Assembly (NCBI GenBank): GCA_028820935.1
Contig: JAPPHZ010000030.1
Span: forward strand, 62,001-126,000
Origin: a bacterium
GTDB lineage: Bacteria > Actinomycetota > Acidimicrobiia > Spongiisociales > Spongiisociaceae
Direction of reading: 5' to 3'
Length of the DNA: 64,000 bases
The notes below the pieces were generated by a model that saw only the letters and a program-made list of their open reading frames with translations, did no database searches and was not told where the DNA came from. Shown here in pieces: positions 25,264-62,717 of the stretch. Position 1 is the stretch's first letter. The number at the start of each line of letters is the position of its first letter. Both the position numbers and the translations under genes were made by a program.

Positions 25264-25310
25264 GCTGTCCCAGTTTCAGTGGTCAGTGGACCAATATAAT
25301 CCAACATAAA

Positions 25311-25369
25311 CTAGCAACTAGCAACTAGCAACTAGCAACTAGCAACTAGCAACTAGCAACCAGCAACTA
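25311..25369 (-). repeat. TAGTTGC heptamer array fused to the topA stop codon
   Basis: Read on the minus strand, eight heptamers run from 25369 to 25314: TAGTTGC, TGGTTGC, then six perfect TAGTTGC, followed by one more TAG. The first TAG (25369-25367) is the topA stop codon itself. The array lies between convergent topA and the bactofilin-like gene. CTAG at each junction is palindromic, so stops occur in all six frames. Confidence 0.95.
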
Positions 25370-27934
25370 CCTTCTCTTGGGCGGCCACTTGCCCTGGCTC
25401 TTCAGCTTCTCCCTCTTGGCGGCGAGCAGCCGGGCGGCCTCCTCGAGGCCCAGGCCGGCCACGGCGTTCTCTCGAACCGAGGCGTTCACGACCCCATCGG
25501 TCAGGTACGGTCCGTACCGCCCGGTCCTGACCACCACCTCCCCCCCGGACTCCGGGTCCTTGCCCAGTTCCCTCAGAGGCGGCGCGGCGCGACGGCCCCG
25601 CCGGGCCTTCGGCCGGTTCATCACAGTGACCGCCTCTTCCAGGGTGATGCCGAAGAGCAGTTGCGGGTTGTCCAGGTTCCGGTACTCGGTACCCATCTTC
25701 AGATACGGTCCGTAGCGTCCCAGACCCGCCACGATGGTCTGGCCGGTGTCAGGATGGACCCCCACCGAGCGCGGCAGGGAGAGCAGGCGCAACGCCTCCT
25801 CCAGGCTCAGCGAGTCCAGGTCCATCCCGGCCAGGAGCGAGGTTCGCTTGGGCTTCTGGCGGGACCCGGAAACCTGCTCACCGAGCTGCACGTAGGGTCC
25901 GTAGCGTCCGTTGCGGGCCAGGACGGTCAGGCCCGAGTCGGGATCGGTGCCCAGGATCTTGTCGCCCGAAGGAGCCTCCAGGAGGCTGAGGGCTTTCTGC
26001 AGGGTCAGCTCGTCCGGCGGCAGGTCGTCGGGTATCGAGGCTCGATCCTCGCCCCTGGCGAGATACGGCCCGTACCTCCCCACCCGCGCCACCACCTCCG
26101 CGCCGGTGGCGTCCTCCCCGATGGGTATGAACAGGCTGCGCGGGTCGATCTCCTTGACACGGTCGGAGGCGATCAATTCCAGGAGGCCGGGGGATCCGTT
26201 CCCGTGGAAGAAGCGGCTCAGCCAGGGGACCTTCCGTTCCTCGCCACGGGCGATCTTGTCGAGGTCCCCCTCCATGCGGGAGGTGAAGCCGTAGTCGACC
26301 AGGTGGTCGAAGTGGCGTTCCAGCAGCACCGTGGTGGCGAAAGCCGTCACCGACGGGACCAGCGCGGTCCTCTTCTTGAACACGTAGTCGCGTTCGATGA
26401 TCGTGGAGACGGTGGAGGCGTAGGTGGACGGCCGCCCGATCCCCCGATCCTCGAGTTCCTTGATCAGGGAGGCCTCGCTGTACCGGCTCGGCGGCTCGGT
26501 GCGGTGCTCCCTGGCGAGAGCGTTCCGGGCGGTGACCTGGTCGCCTTCTTCGAGGCGGGGCAGGTGCCGTTCCCGGTCGGTCTGGGCATAGACCTTCAGG
26601 AAGCCGGGGAACCGAATGGTTAGGCCCGACGCCTCGGACTCCACGTCCGTTCCGTCATCGATCGACGCTCCCGCCCGGACCCTGGTGGACTCGCCCCGGG
26701 CTGGCGCCATCTGCGAGGCCAGGGTACGCGCCCACACCAGCTGGTAGACCAGGTGCTGGTCGCGGTCGGACACCAGTTCCACCACTTCCTCGGGCGTCCT
26801 CCACCGGTCGCCGGCGGGCCGGATGGCCTCGTGCGCCTCCTGGGCGTTGGCCACCTTGCCGGTGTACCGGATGGGTCCGGAGGCCAGGTATTCCTTGCCG
26901 AACCGCTTCGCGATCTCGGACCGGGCTGCCGTCAGGGCGGTCTCGGACAGGGTGATGCTGTCGGTCCGCATGTACGTGATGTAGCCGTTCTCGTAGAGGG
27001 ATTGGGCAGCCCGCATGGTCCGGCCCGGCTCGAACCGCAGCCTGGTGGAGGCCTCTCGCTGGAGGGTCGAGGTACGGAAGGGCGCCTGGGGCCTGCGCGT
27101 GTAGGGCTTGCGGTCCACCTTCCGGATCCGCAACCGGGAGCCCTCGATCGCTCCCGCCAGTCGGGCCGATCGGTCTCCATCGAGGAGCACGACCGCGGCG
27201 GACTTCAGGTTCCCCCTGGCGTCGAAGTCCTTGCTCCCGGCCGTACGCACGCCGTCAACGGTCACCAGCTGGGCTTGGAAGCTCTCATCGCCGCGGGTGA
27301 CGAGACGGGCCTCCACGTTCCAGAAACTGGCCGATCGGAACGCGATCCGCCGGCGTTCCCGCTCCACGAGCAGGCGCACGGCCACGCTCTGAACCCGACC
27401 GGCGGAGAGACCCCTCCTGACCTTGCGCCACAGCACGGGCGACACGCCGTAGCCGACCAGCCGGTCCAGGGTCCGCCGGGCTTCCTGGGCATCGACCCGG
27501 GAGCTGTCGATGGTACGGGGGTTGGCCAGGGCCTCCCTGATCGCGCCGGGGGTGATCTCGTGGAACACCATCCGGTGGGTTGGAACCTTGGGCTTCAGCA
27601 CCTCGGTGAGGTGCCAGGCGATGGCCTCTCCCTCACGGTCCTCGTCGGTCGCCAGGTACAGCTCGGACGCCTCCTTGGCGGCCTGCCTCAGCTTGGTGAC
27701 GATCCGGCGCCGGTCGCCGGGAACGATGTACAGGGGTTCGAAGTCGTTGTTTACATCGACTCCCCAGTTCTTGGCCCAGGCCTGGTCCCGGTACTTGGCA
27801 GGGATCTGCTGGGCGCGGTCGGGTAGGTCGCGGATGTGACCCTGGCATGATTCCACGCGGTAGCCCCTTCCCAGGTAGCCCCCGATGGTCTTCGCCTTGG
27901 CGTTGGATTCGACGATGATGAGCGGCTTGGCCAT
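25367..27934 (-). CDS. topA: DNA topoisomerase I (type IA)
   Basis: 855 aa; relaxes negative supercoils by transient single-strand breakage. The Toprim domain has Glu9 (IVESNAKAKTI) and the acidic triad in DEDREGE (97-103). The active-site tyrosine is Tyr321 in YITYMRTDS. The C-terminus lacks the Cys4 zinc fingers of E. coli TopA and instead has four RYGPY(L/V) repeats and a Lys/Arg tail (KREKLKSQGKWPPKRR), the usual actinobacterial form. No ribosome site precedes the ATG. A TTGACA/TATTAA promoter ends six bases before it, suggesting a leaderless mRNA. The stop codon TAG is the first unit of a heptamer array. Confidence 0.97.
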   Translation of the reverse strand: MAKPLIIVESNAKAKTIGGYLGRGYRVESCQGHIRDLPDRAQQIPAKYRDQAWAKNWGVDVNNDFEPLYIVPGDRRRIVTKLRQAAKEASELYLATDEDREGEAIAWHLTEVLKPKVPTHRMVFHEITPGAIREALANPRTIDSSRVDAQEARRTLDRLVGYGVSPVLWRKVRRGLSAGRVQSVAVRLLVERERRRIAFRSASFWNVEARLVTRGDESFQAQLVTVDGVRTAGSKDFDARGNLKSAAVVLLDGDRSARLAGAIEGSRLRIRKVDRKPYTRRPQAPFRTSTLQREASTRLRFEPGRTMRAAQSLYENGYITYMRTDSITLSETALTAARSEIAKRFGKEYLASGPIRYTGKVANAQEAHEAIRPAGDRWRTPEEVVELVSDRDQHLVYQLVWARTLASQMAPARGESTRVRAGASIDDGTDVESEASGLTIRFPGFLKVYAQTDRERHLPRLEEGDQVTARNALAREHRTEPPSRYSEASLIKELEDRGIGRPSTYASTVSTIIERDYVFKKRTALVPSVTAFATTVLLERHFDHLVDYGFTSRMEGDLDKIARGEERKVPWLSRFFHGNGSPGLLELIASDRVKEIDPRSLFIPIGEDATGAEVVARVGRYGPYLARGEDRASIPDDLPPDELTLQKALSLLEAPSGDKILGTDPDSGLTVLARNGRYGPYVQLGEQVSGSRQKPKRTSLLAGMDLDSLSLEEALRLLSLPRSVGVHPDTGQTIVAGLGRYGPYLKMGTEYRNLDNPQLLFGITLEEAVTVMNRPKARRGRRAAPPLRELGKDPESGGEVVVRTGRYGPYLTDGVVNASVRENAVAGLGLEEAARLLAAKREKLKSQGKWPPKRR

Positions 27935-28032: not shown

Positions 28033-28055
28033 AGCGTACCCGGAGGGTGTGACAT
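28033..28055 (-). promoter_or_regulatory. ATGTCACAC-N8-TACGCT damage-type promoter candidate upstream of topA
   Basis: Minus strand, 28055-28047 ATGTCACAC, eight bases, then TACGCT (28038-28033). It has the same nonamer/hexamer spacing as the motifs before recA, ssb and the solute-binding gene at 61 kb. It would drive topA from about 95 bases upstream; it also lies just before the MFS gene on the other strand. Confidence 0.45.
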
Positions 28056-31138: not shown

Positions 31139-31166
31139 TAGTTGCTAGTTGCTAGTTGCTAGTTGT
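31139..31166 (+). repeat. TAGTTGC heptamer array behind holB
   Basis: Three perfect TAGTTGC units and one TAGTTGT, starting one base after the holB TGA stop and in holB orientation. It continues the pattern seen behind topA and the DUF2236 gene. Confidence 0.95.
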
Positions 31167-34658: not shown

Positions 34659-35597
34659 GTGATCGGACCTCGTTCGATAAGGATGGGGGAGTTGTGGCGG
34701 TCCCGGGTCCGGGCCTCCGCCACAGGTCCGTTCGGCCACATCGAGTACCCGCTACGCCACACCCTGGACTTCCCCGGCGACCCCGGCGTGTGCGGTCCCG
34801 GCTCGGCATCCTGGTCGGTGATCTCGGATGTGGCCGCCTTCGTGGGCGGCATCAGGGCGCTGTTGATCCAGAGCGCCCATCCGGAGGTGGTGGCCGGGGT
34901 TGCGGACCACTCCCGCTACCGGGTCGACCCGCTGGGACGGCTGTCCCGGACCTCCGCCTACGTCACGGCAACCACATTCGGCGCCGGCCCTGAGGTGGAA
35001 CGCGCCGTGGAGGCGGTCCGAAGGGCTCACAGCCGCGTGGAGGGGACCTCCCACCGTGGCCGGCCCTATTCGGCCGGTGCTCCCGGCCTGTCCGCCTGGG
35101 TGCACAACGTGCTGACCGACTCTTTCCTGGCCGCCCACCAGGCATTCGGGGCGGTAGCCCTGACCCCGACCGACGCCGATCGCTTCGTGCGCGAGCAGGC
35201 CCGCATCGGACGGATGCTCGGCGCGGAGCCCGTGCCCGTGGAGGCCGACCCGCTATCGCGCTGGGTGTCGGCTCACGCAGACCTGGCCCCGTCGCCCGGG
35301 ATGCGGGAGGCGGTGGACTTCCTGGCGGACCCGCCGCTGGCGGGGCTGCAGAAGGTCGGTTACCGACTCCTCTATCTCGGGGCGGTCTCGACCATTCCGG
35401 ATCGGATCAGAGGCCTGCTCGGGATCCGGCGTCGGGGTGGCCGTCCGGCCGGTGCTCTGGCGGTGAAGCTCCTCCGGTCGGTGCTGGGGTTCTCGCCCAC
35501 CTGGAGCCTGGCGCTGATCCGCACCGGCTGCCCGGTTCCCGAAGGAGTACTCCGCCAGCCCCTACCCGTCGACATCCCGCCCGGCTGGAAGGTCTAG
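34659..35597 (+). CDS. DUF2236 / MpaB-family protein (rubber-oxygenase-like fold)
   Basis: 312 aa. The family pattern is seen in VGGIRALLIQSAHPEVVAGVADHSRYRVDPLGRLSRTSAYV, with a conserved His, and WVHNVLTDSFLAAHQAFG. This family includes latex-clearing protein and MpaB and often binds haem, but many members have no known role. The start is GTG 34659, eight bases after the anti-sigma stop; ATG 34683 is an alternative. Probably the last gene of the sigma operon. Its TAG stop is the first triplet of the longest forward heptamer array. Confidence 0.85.
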   Translation: MIGPRSIRMGELWRSRVRASATGPFGHIEYPLRHTLDFPGDPGVCGPGSASWSVISDVAAFVGGIRALLIQSAHPEVVAGVADHSRYRVDPLGRLSRTSAYVTATTFGAGPEVERAVEAVRRAHSRVEGTSHRGRPYSAGAPGLSAWVHNVLTDSFLAAHQAFGAVALTPTDADRFVREQARIGRMLGAEPVPVEADPLSRWVSAHADLAPSPGMREAVDFLADPPLAGLQKVGYRLLYLGAVSTIPDRIRGLLGIRRRGGRPAGALAVKLLRSVLGFSPTWSLALIRTGCPVPEGVLRQPLPVDIPPGWKV

Positions 35598-35650
35598 TTG
35601 CTAGTTGCTAGTTGCTAGTTGCTAGTTGCTAGTTGTTAGTTACTAGTTAT
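35595..35650 (+). repeat. TAGTTGC heptamer array fused to the DUF2236 stop codon
   Basis: Eight units in gene orientation: five perfect TAGTTGC, then TAGTTGT, TAGTTAC and TAGTTAT, decaying with distance. The first TAG (35595-35597) is the stop codon. Every unit retains TAGTT. Confidence 0.95.
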
Positions 35651-55459: not shown

Positions 55460-55475
55460 ACGAACATGTGTTCGT
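55460..55475 (+). promoter_or_regulatory. LexA (SOS) box upstream of recA
   Basis: ACGAACATGTGTTCGT: two perfect 7-base arms around a TG centre, matching the actinobacterial/Gram-positive LexA consensus CGAACnnnnGTTCG. TAGGAT (55454-55459) directly abuts it and may be the -10 it represses. It is 228 bases before the recA ATG. Confidence 0.85.
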
Positions 55476-55586
55476 GTCATCCCGGAAGTGCGGTGGTCTG
55501 TCTGTGGAAGATCCACTAACCTTGGCTGTGGATAACACGACTGTAGTTCGGCAGGTGTAATTGGTGTATATCGGGTCGGAATTCCG

Positions 55587-55614
55587 GGTCCTGCCCGGCC
55601 GAAGCGGGAGGACC
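55587..55614 (+). other. Hairpin in the recA 5' leader
   Basis: GGTCCT(g)CCCG pairs with CGGGAGGACC around a seven-base loop (one bulged G). It lies between the LexA-controlled region and the second promoter candidate, so it is only in transcripts that begin upstream. Confidence 0.4.
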
Positions 55615-55622
55615 GGCGGTTT

Positions 55623-55645
55623 CTGTCACAGCCTCTCCTTACCTT
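55623..55645 (+). promoter_or_regulatory. CTGTCACAG-N8-TACCTT damage-type promoter of recA
   Basis: CTGTCACAG (55623-55631), eight bases, TACCTT (55640-55645). It agrees in core (TGTCA) and exact spacing with the RecA-NDp consensus TTGTCRGTG-N8-TAnnnT, recognised by PafBC in mycobacteria. Transcription would start about 50 bases before the recA ATG. Confidence 0.6.
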
Positions 55646-55703
55646 TGGTCTTGGTACAGGCCCGGCACGAACCCGTCGGCTCGATGACACGAAGGAGTAA
55701 CCG

Positions 55704-56741
55704 ATGAAGAACAAGGAACGGACGCAGGCTCTGGACTCGGCCATGTCGCAGATCGAGCGGCAGTTCGGCAAGGGATCCATCATGCGACTCGGTTCGACCG
55801 CCCACCAGAAGATCGCCCATATCTCCACCGGGGCGCTGTCCCTCGACCTGGCCCTGGGGATCGGGGGAGTACCCAGGGGCCGTATCGTCGAGGTGTACGG
55901 TCCCGAATCGAGCGGGAAGACCACCCTCGCCCTGCATATCGTGGCCGAGGCCCAGCGCAACGGAGGGCTGGCCGCCTTCGTGGACGCCGAGCATGCCCTT
56001 GACCCCGTCTATGCGAAGGCGGTCGGCGTGGATATCGACGAGCTCCTGATCTCCCAGCCCGACACAGGCGAGCAGGCCCTGGAAATCGCCGATACGCTGA
56101 TCCGCTCCGGCGCTCTCGATGTGTTGGTGATCGACTCGGTGGCCGCGCTGGTGCCCAGGGCCGAGATCGAGGGGGAGATGGGCGACACCCATGTGGGCCT
56201 CCAGGCCCGGCTGATGTCCCAGGCCCTGCGCAAGCTGACCGCCAACGTCAACCGATCGATGACCACCGCCGTCTTCATCAACCAGCTCCGCGAGAAGATC
56301 GGAGTGATGTTCGGCTCCCCGGAGGTCACGCCCGGTGGCCGGGCCCTGAAGTTCTATTCGAGCGTGCGCCTGGACATCCGTCGCATCGAAGCGATCAAGG
56401 ACGGTAGGGAACAGATCGGCAACCGGACGCGGGTGAAGGTGGTCAAGAACAAGCTGGCGCCTCCTTTCCGCATGGCCGAGTTCGACATCATGTTCGGGCA
56501 GGGCATCTCCCGCGAGGGCAGCCTTCTCGACGTGGCGGTGACCGTCGGGATCGTCAGGAAGAGCGGCGCCTGGTACACGTTCGAGGGTGACCAGCTGGGA
56601 CAAGGCCGCGAGAAGGCGAAGAGGTTCTTGCGTGAGAATCCCGACCTGGCGATGGTGCTCGAGGCGAAGGTCCTGGCAGCGGTCGGGATCACAGACCCCG
56701 AGGAAGCCGGGACGGAAGCTGTCGAAGTCGGGTCCGATTAG
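55704..56741 (+). CDS. recA: Recombinase RecA
   Basis: 345 aa. Forms filaments on ssDNA, drives strand exchange and triggers LexA self-cleavage. Walker [10 protein letters not shown] (66-74), [11 protein letters not shown] (Walker B), and the L1/L2 loops ([20 protein letters not shown], and [21 protein letters not shown]) are intact, and no intein is present. ATG 55704 with GAAGGAG upstream. Upstream control elements are an SOS box and a second damage-type promoter, the two-promoter plan known from M. tuberculosis. A strong hairpin follows the gene. recX, usually next, is not seen. Confidence 0.98.
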
Positions 56742-57926: not shown

Positions 57927-57949
57927 CTGTCACACCCACCCCATACATT
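57927..57949 (+). promoter_or_regulatory. CTGTCACAC-N8-TACATT damage-type promoter of ssb
   Basis: CTGTCACAC (57927-57935), eight bases, TACATT (57944-57949), 44 bases before the ssb ATG. The following CTATCGC is also shared with the copy at 61392. Same spacing as the recA motif. Confidence 0.6.
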
Positions 57950-57993: not shown

Positions 57994-58350
57994 ATGGTCA
58001 AGAGCAACAATCCAGCCAAGCCCGAGGACACGCAGCGGCACGACCGCAACGAGGTTGTCCTGAGAGGCGTGCTGACCACCGCACCGGAGCATCGGGTCTT
58101 CGGATCTGGGGCGTCACTGGCCCGCCTGCTGGTGACGATCCGCCTGTCCGCTCCGAGAACCAGGACCGACGTCATCCCGGTAACGGTCTGGGAACCCGAT
58201 GCGGCGGTCATCGAGGCCGAGCGCGGCACTCCCGTCGACGTGGTCGGGCAGGTGCATCGACGCTTCTGGACCGACGCGGAGGGCCGGCACAGCCGGGTCG
58301 AGGTGGTAGCGACCGAGGTCGTGCTCGGCGAGATCAGGTCGACCGCCTGA
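57994..58350 (+). CDS. ssb: Single-stranded-DNA-binding protein (short OB-fold form)
   Basis: 118 aa. One OB fold: NEVVLRGVLTTAPEHRVFGSGASLARLLVTIRL, then DVIPVTVWEPDAAVIEAERGTPVDVVGQVHRRFWTDAEGRHSRVEVVATEV, which match SSB strands as regions at ~19-50 and ~58-110. It lacks the acidic DDDIPF-like C-terminal tail of the main replicative SSB, so it may be an auxiliary or damage-linked paralogue. ATG with GAAGGAG upstream. Preceded by the CTGTCACAC promoter candidate. Confidence 0.82.
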   Translation: MVKSNNPAKPEDTQRHDRNEVVLRGVLTTAPEHRVFGSGASLARLLVTIRLSAPRTRTDVIPVTVWEPDAAVIEAERGTPVDVVGQVHRRFWTDAEGRHSRVEVVATEVVLGEIRSTA

Positions 58351-61364: not shown

Positions 61365-62717
61365 GTGAGCATTACCGAATGGGGGTTGAAACTGTCACAC
61401 CCTCGCCATACATTGCCTATCGCCAAGCACCTGCGCCGGTCGAGAGCTCTCCCAATTGGCTCGACCGACCCGAGGGAACATTCAGCTTCTAGGAGCGAAG
61501 GGCCTTCATCCCGGCATCCAGCCGGGCATGGCCGACCACGCTCCAAAAAGGAAAGGTGGTGGTGGGGGAGGGCCCGGTGCGGAGCGCCGGTTTGGCGCGG
61601 CGATTTTCGCGTTCTCGGACCGGTCCGGCGCTGGCGCCAAGCGGTTGTGGCGTTGCTCATCCCGTCGCTGGTGGCTTGCGGGTTCGGATCCGACCAGACC
61701 GAGGAGGTGCCTTCCCCGGTCTGCGCGTCCGGGCAGATCGACGGTGAGGTGGTTCTGCTCAGCCGCGCCGGGCAGATGGCACCGCAGGTCATCGACCGGT
61801 TCGAGCGGCGCTACGCGGTGGACGTCAAGGAGCTGTTCTACGAGACCGACGACGAGATGCTCTCCCGCGTGACCGCAGGTGCCGACCCGTTCGATGTGGT
61901 GATTCTCAGCCAGGACCTGGCTGCGATTCTCTGGCGGGGAGGCCAGCTCCACGCTCTCGACCCGATTGCCTTGCCGGGTCGGGTGAACCTCGACACCCAG
62001 CTCATCCGACCGGATTCGGATACCGAGGGCTTCTACACGGTGCCGCTCGTCTGGGGCACGGTCGGGATCGGTTTGAATGTCAACGTGGTGCCCGACACCG
62101 CCGAAACCAACTGGGGGCTCATCTTCGATCTCTCCCAGGCTTGGATTTACGCGGGTCGGGTCTCACTCCTTGATGATCCCCGCCACGTCATGGCCGCCGC
62201 CATGTTCTACCTCGGATACTCGCCGAACTCGGCGAACCGGGACCAGGTGCGGGAAGCCGGCCGGGTGGTGGCGGAGGCGAAGGCCCACTTGAGGGGGTTC
62301 GATTCTGACGACTACGCAGCCAGGTTGGCCGATGGGGGGCTCGACCTTGCCCAAGGCCGGTCGGATGACTTCCTGGCGGCCCTTGCCCCCGACTCGGACG
62401 ACTTCCTCTACGTCATACCCCAGGAAGGGGCCGCCATCTGGTTGGAGTCGATGGCCGTTCCCGTCACGTCCCAGCATCCGTGCAGCGCCCATTCCTTCAT
62501 CGACTTCCTACTCGAGCCTCGGACGGGAGCGGTCGTGGCCGACCATATCGGGGAGGCCACCGCGAACACGGCGTCGCTCTCGTACCTGATGCCCGAGACC
62601 GCCGCCAACCGGACGCTCTATCCGACGCTCCAGGCCCGGGAGCGGCTGGTGCTCCTCGAATACACGGAGGAACTGGACCTCCTGTACGCGGAGGAGTTCG
62701 CGCTGGTGGTGGAGTAG
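61365..62717 (+). CDS. Family 1-type solute-binding lipoprotein (PotD-like), start uncertain
   Basis: The mature domain, from Cys104 (lipobox SLVAC) to the end, is a PotD/AfuA-like periplasmic binding protein: VVLLSRAGQMAPQVIDRFERRY, VVILSQDLAAILW and VPLVWGTVGIGLNVNVVPD, as in spermidine/putrescine or Fe3+ binders. GTG 61365 as the start would give ~100 residues before the lipobox and would include the promoter-like motif at 61392. No canonical start follows the motif until ten codons before the Cys. GGGGGAGGG at ~61564-61572 could be a ribosome site followed by a non-standard start, or there may be a frame error in the adjacent G-rich run. No transporter genes adjoin. Confidence 0.7.
   Translation: MSITEWGLKLSHPRHTLPIAKHLRRSRALPIGSTDPREHSASRSEGPSSRHPAGHGRPRSKKERWWWGRARCGAPVWRGDFRVLGPVRRWRQAVVALLIPSLVACGFGSDQTEEVPSPVCASGQIDGEVVLLSRAGQMAPQVIDRFERRYAVDVKELFYETDDEMLSRVTAGADPFDVVILSQDLAAILWRGGQLHALDPIALPGRVNLDTQLIRPDSDTEGFYTVPLVWGTVGIGLNVNVVPDTAETNWGLIFDLSQAWIYAGRVSLLDDPRHVMAAAMFYLGYSPNSANRDQVREAGRVVAEAKAHLRGFDSDDYAARLADGGLDLAQGRSDDFLAALAPDSDDFLYVIPQEGAAIWLESMAVPVTSQHPCSAHSFIDFLLEPRTGAVVADHIGEATANTASLSYLMPETAANRTLYPTLQARERLVLLEYTEELDLLYAEEFALVVE
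61392..61414 (+). promoter_or_regulatory. CTGTCACAC-N8-TACATT damage-type promoter candidate
   Basis: CTGTCACAC (61392-61400), eight bases, TACATT (61409-61414), with CTATCGC after it. Same nonamer and hexamer as before ssb. TTGAAA (61386-61391) overlaps a conventional -35 position 17 bases before the hexamer. It should drive the solute-binding gene. Confidence 0.5.

Follow-up and report, generated by a model that had tools for sequence, protein, structure and literature searches.

A PafBC-type promoter upstream of recA, common to repair genes and a multicopy structured RNA family in an order of actinobacteria

The window, i.e. the whole 64,000-nt stretch of DNA that was analysed, carries on its forward strand a recA gene (55704..56741) that encodes a protein of 345 aa and starts with an ATG at 55704. 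Upstream lies a LexA (SOS) box, ACGAAC-ATGT-GTTCGT (ACGAACATGTGTTCGT, 55460-55475), a perfect palindromic 6+6 operator where a near-perfect SOS palindrome had originally been noted, and nearer to the gene the nonamer CTGTCACAG (55623-55631) followed by N8 and TACCTT, which a re-reading of the sequence found just as it had been described (55623-55645). Sequence comparison outlines here a putative LexA-independent promoter (P1), on the same strand as recA, that has no usable -35 element but a PafBC-type -26 element TGTCACAG (55624..55631) fixed 8 nt before its -10 element TACCTT (55640..55645), from which transcription would be expected to start near 55652. As a single sequence this is a weak match, the nonamer agreeing with TTGTCRGTG in 6/9 positions (TGTCACAG has the TGTCR of the full consensus tTGTCRgtg, but the following two bases differ), and ~6% of shuffled upstream regions match TTGTCRGTG-N8-TAnnnT equally well on the same strand. 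Single-sequence significance was thus abandoned as proof in favour of conservation, and the recA site is secure because it is conserved across the order. The hairpin proposed to lie between the two elements can indeed be drawn, but its sequence and position vary among species of one genus, and it was therefore rejected as a functional element and given no weight. The same interval contains a ~60-nt block around a DnaA-box-like sequence (TGTGGATAACA, 55527-55537) that is nearly invariant inside the genus, is partly kept in sister genera and may hold another promoter or binding site.

To assess conservation, the upstream regions of 64 recA genes of the order were compared. A perfect CGAAC-N4-GTTCG core is present in 63 of them and TGTC-N12-TAnnnT, with its fixed span of 22 nt, in 61 (against a mean of 0.6 in shuffled upstream regions), always downstream of the LexA box where both occur; this motif search in relatives had been named beforehand as a test of the prediction. 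When 12 members of the family, other genera included, are aligned, the LexA box and TTTCTGTCACAG...TACCTT are conspicuous against diverged flanks. The -26 heptamer reads TGTCACA in 41 upstream regions, the others having TGTCACT, TGTCCCA, TGTCATA, TGTCAGT, TGTCGGT and further variants, and in some genomes of the order canonical TGTCAGTG or TGTCGGTG stands before recA in place of TGTCACA. Among named Actinomycetota, Streptomyces, Nocardia, Rhodococcus and Mycobacterium have TGTC[AG]G forms of the corresponding element, and Aquihabitans and two further MAGs, of which one belongs to Acidimicrobiales, have TGTCACA. Judged by these relatives, the genome of the window probably belongs to class Acidimicrobiia. 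The strongest argument for a PafBC (RecA-NDp) promoter, as opposed to a different site, is this swapping of forms at a constant place and spacing.

In mycobacteria, PafBC activated by single-stranded DNA directs sigma A polymerase to TGTC promoters and RecA filaments bring about LexA cleavage (PMC5656591, PMC11804915), the mode of action of PafBC being sigma adaptation (PMC11804915). The recA P1 of mycobacteria (tTGTCRgtg-N8-TAnnnT) and the one described here have the same place and spacing, a TGTC core, a TAnnnT -10, a LexA promoter nearby and pafBC beside pafA. They differ in the bases after TGTC, mostly ACA(C/G) here versus RGTG, and in the LexA box, which lies 148 nt upstream in the window and 14-189 nt upstream in the genomes compared. 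The original prediction had read the divergent 3' end of the nonamer as a possible change in PafBC specificity. No such change need be assumed, because the M. tuberculosis motif (TGTCGG, TGTCAG or TGTCAC, then N10-TA-N3-T; PMC8151990) already accommodates TGTCAC and because a canonical TGTCGGTG site occurs before recC in this genome. The -26 element of the lineage, mostly TGTCACA(C/G), is better called a lineage preference.

The regulators that such an arrangement calls for were sought in the genome and all of them are present. There is a pafA-pafB-pafC operon, in the gene order pafA-pafB-pafC-tatA-tatC (tatA and tatC named by eye), and PafB and PafC, which match the solved PafBC chains of M. 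smegmatis and Arthrobacter and contain WYL, WCX and HTH_PafC domains (Pfam), account for the only WYL matches in the genome. A single LexA is encoded (lexA, C13:9220-9408), and the LexA boxes adjoining its gene suggest autoregulation; with its perfect 6+6 palindrome before recA and its own boxes at lexA, the system resembles the actinobacterial SOS operator (CGAAC-N4-GTTCG) with no difference of note. A literature search on PafBC in Acidimicrobiia returned nothing relevant.

The promoter motif extends well beyond recA. Pattern searches, which together with sampled stretches provided the genome counts, found 49 exact TGTCACA-N9-TAnnnT sites in the 3.30-Mb genome, compared to 0.38 expected under a second-order Markov model and 0 for a reversed-pattern control. 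Eighteen of these sites stand before genes, among them recA, ssb, topA, lhr, a UvrD-type helicase gene, rmuC and dprA, as well as genes for HNH proteins, a VWA-ARPP1 protein, a protein with a GmrSD-C nuclease domain and several uncharacterised genes. Besides that of recA, two can be seen in the window, where the PafBC-type promoter TGTCACACCCACCCCATACATT (57928..57949, forward strand) precedes an ssb-family gene of 118 aa (57994..58350, forward strand; Pfam SSB, E=1e-10), and TGTCACACCCTCCGGGTACGCT (28033..28054, reverse strand) lies ~100 nt before the start of topA, which encodes DNA topoisomerase I (25367..27934, reverse strand; 855 aa, Pfam Toprim and Topoisom_bac). The canonical TGTCGGTG has one occurrence in the genome, the one before recC, and almost every genome of the genus has the same match. 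Across the order, motif-bearing genes include those that we take to be recA, uvrA, recQ, dprA and a class II ribonucleotide reductase gene. These sites form a PafBC-type regulon, whose dependence on PafBC itself seems probable from the promoter sequences, and its repair-gene targets fit the published ones, since ssb, uvrA and a recB-like gene respond in M. tuberculosis without RecA (PMC8151990). SOS-type palindromes also occur beside two other PafBC-type sites, before the genes for an HNH protein (L257, G000:C3:4825-4846) and a small protein that is ImuA-like by eye (L294, G000:C43:33812-33833); in both, a perfect LexA-type palindrome directly follows the -10, which suggests combined activation and repression. 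Three TGTCACA-N9-TAnnnTT sites are found within ~1.2 kb in G007, the most diverged species of the genus (L103, G007:C29:10382-11621).

The remaining 31 of the 49 sites are located at the starts of copies of a ~195-nt RNA repeat, in which the promoter is followed by ~195 nt of conserved sequence (GCCAAGCACC ... GGAGCG-...-CGCTCC ... GGTGGTGGNGGGGGAGGGCCC) and, in most copies, by a terminator hairpin and a T run (e.g. CCGGTGC-GGA-GCACCGG-TTTTT). The copy in the window is on the forward strand (61415..61599, including a terminator-like hairpin near 61576-61592; nhmmer E=1e-58, covariance model 181.8 bits), and its predicted promoter (61386..61414) has a -35 TTGAAA (61386-61391), a 17-nt spacer with TGTCACAC at 61393-61400, and a -10 TACATT (61409-61414). 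In an alignment of 48 copies, 94.4% of cells pair compared to 29-48% in slid structures, a result that profits from the fitting of the alignment to the model; in the same model-fitted alignment, 20 of the 36 base pairs show double changes, with 79 double-change cells versus 16 in shuffles. Folding of single copies gave inconsistent structures and weak z-scores, and the alignment-based test was used instead. The repeat is not a coding gene, its ATG frame (MADHAP...) being disrupted by indels whose lengths are not divisible by three, and the copies are not leaders because the downstream frame is usually on the opposite strand (17/26 callable cases, with crude frame calling). Rfam 15 covariance models provided no known identity, without a match to the family even at E<=1, and a literature search for such a family found nothing relevant. 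Like the bacterial structured RNAs of Rfam 15 and stand-alone small RNA genes, it has its own promoter, conserved stems and an intrinsic terminator; unlike them, it is present in dozens of dispersed copies per genome and has a promoter type in common with recA. The multicopy structured RNA family is new and was not expected. At recA the system is a known one, with a -26 element that varies by lineage.

With a diagnostic 21-mer, each of ten genomes of the genus shows 25-41 RNA copies, and counts in sister genera do not exceed 4, which is the control level. A covariance model run on 138 genomes, with at most 18 copies counted in any one of them, detects the RNA throughout the ten genomes of the genus, in two sister genera and also in g45, a distant genus of family f8 (5-10 copies per genome), with no match in the rest of the 138; the g45 genomes are also conspicuous for the promoter motif. 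In distant copies the core is retained, as is a promoter with TTGA, and most of them also have, at unchanged spacing, a GTCAC-type element in the spacer. Across species the copies are syntenic, and since both flanks are 84-99% identical they have been inherited and are not currently mobile. Many copies are followed directly by short palindromic repeats, either single or in tandem series, of GACGCCCTGATCCTCAGG and its variants (L255:12950-13030, L256:16730-16870, L046 and others). Two full and more partial copies are clustered beside rmuC (L274, L275 and L276; G000:C28:29097-31155), a gene that carries its own PafBC-type site. There is also a divergent subfamily (L280, L263, L271, L282, L289 and L303), with a different 5' body (TTGGATAACCGTAA...) and the same promoter and G-rich 3' part.

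Comparison of the promoters of 40 distinct RNA-gene copies revealed an exchange between two elements. The 26 promoters without a -35 all keep TGTCA, which is lost in 9 of the 14 that have a TTGA -35 (Fisher p=7e-6, uncorrected for the kinship of the copies and too small because they are related), while GTCAC remains in 37/40. Mutual substitution of TGTCA and the -35 is the pattern predicted by sigma adaptation, in which a -35 is no longer needed when PafBC acts at -26. The copy in the window has both a near-consensus -35 and a TGTC-type spacer element, so that PafBC may not be required for its activity. In the RNA promoters of G007 and genus g45 the -35 is retained, and the match to the -26 or -10 is weaker.

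These observations on sequences, conservation, spacing, enrichment, presence of lexA and pafBC, targets, RNA structure and promoter grammar outline a model whose predicted parts are protein binding, damage induction, transcription starts and RNA function. We put at nearly nine in ten the probability that recA is under a LexA promoter and a PafBC-type P1, a promoter type common to repair genes and ~31 RNA genes; the dual LexA and PafBC/RecA-NDp control envisaged originally has gained from order- and phylum-wide conservation, the presence of the regulators and the other target genes. Two damage-responsive promoters would drive transcription of recA, one upstream that LexA controls through the palindrome at 55460-55475 and one downstream (P1, 55624-55645) of the PafBC type. 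Damage-derived single-stranded DNA would load RecA filaments that trigger self-cleavage of LexA, and the same DNA would bind the WYL domains of PafBC, enabling RNA polymerase with the housekeeping sigma factor to use TGTC-type promoters, so that recA would answer through two sensors of one signal. The same promoter type would serve ssb, topA, lhr, the UvrD-type helicase gene, rmuC and dprA, and its canonical form recC. Since the ~31 RNA genes have this promoter type as well, damage should raise the RNA along with the repair genes. We see even odds that this family makes up a major part of what the PafBC damage response produces, the PafBC element having replaced the -35 in many copies. Our preferred guess for its role is that it acts as a small RNA in its own right and binds a protein or a messenger when DNA is damaged; titration of PafBC by the many RNA-gene sites is a less likely guess.

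It could be argued that an alternative sigma factor or a different activator reads TGTCACA-N9-TAnnnT, since the last three bases (ACA or CAC) are unlike the mycobacterial GTG and most sites in the genome are followed by RNA genes, not repair genes. This seems very improbable, considering that the canonical PafBC sequence takes the same position before recA in relatives with identical spacing, that M. tuberculosis already accepts TGTCAC, that PafB and PafC are the sole WYL proteins and that the targets, ssb and uvrA included, match the known regulon. Somewhat less remote, but still unlikely, is the notion that a non-autonomous mobile repeat with a chance promoter, rather than damage-controlled RNA genes, accounts for the 31 RNA-like copies. 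High copy number and restricted distribution would be consistent with it, as would contig ends inside copies and paralogues that are sometimes closer than orthologues, but it is difficult to reconcile with copies at the same positions across species between flanks that are both 84-99% identical, with the lack of inverted ends or target duplications (on inspection by eye), with double changes that preserve 20 of 36 pairs in a family extending to a distant family of bacteria, or with the conserved promoter and terminator.

A more serious contender, although still a doubtful one, is a real RNA family with an ordinary sigma A promoter, in which the spacer GTCAC serves another purpose and damage has no effect. 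A good -35 is indeed found in 14 of the 40 promoters, often with a changed TGTC, and the copies of G007 and genus g45 keep theirs. Against this stand the retention of GTCAC in 37 of 40 and that of TGTCA in every one of the 26 copies that lack a -35, which would be expected if PafBC replaces the contacts of the -35.

PafBC control of both recA and the RNA genes, should it be confirmed, would have several implications. Control of recA by PafBC would reach beyond mycobacteria to an entire actinobacterial order, most of it unstudied, in which comparison reveals the bases of the -26 element that drift over evolution. Dozens of sister promoters in one genome, with a -35 and a TGTCA element standing in for one another, amount to a natural experiment in which evolution itself puts sigma adaptation directly to the test. 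Should damage induce the RNAs, the actinobacterial damage response would have a large and unsuspected non-coding RNA component. Apart from these elements, the window contains 7-nt tandem arrays at 25309-25369, 31139-31165 and 35594-35648, whose units (AACTAGC, TAGTTGC and CTAGTTG) are related and partly on opposite strands.
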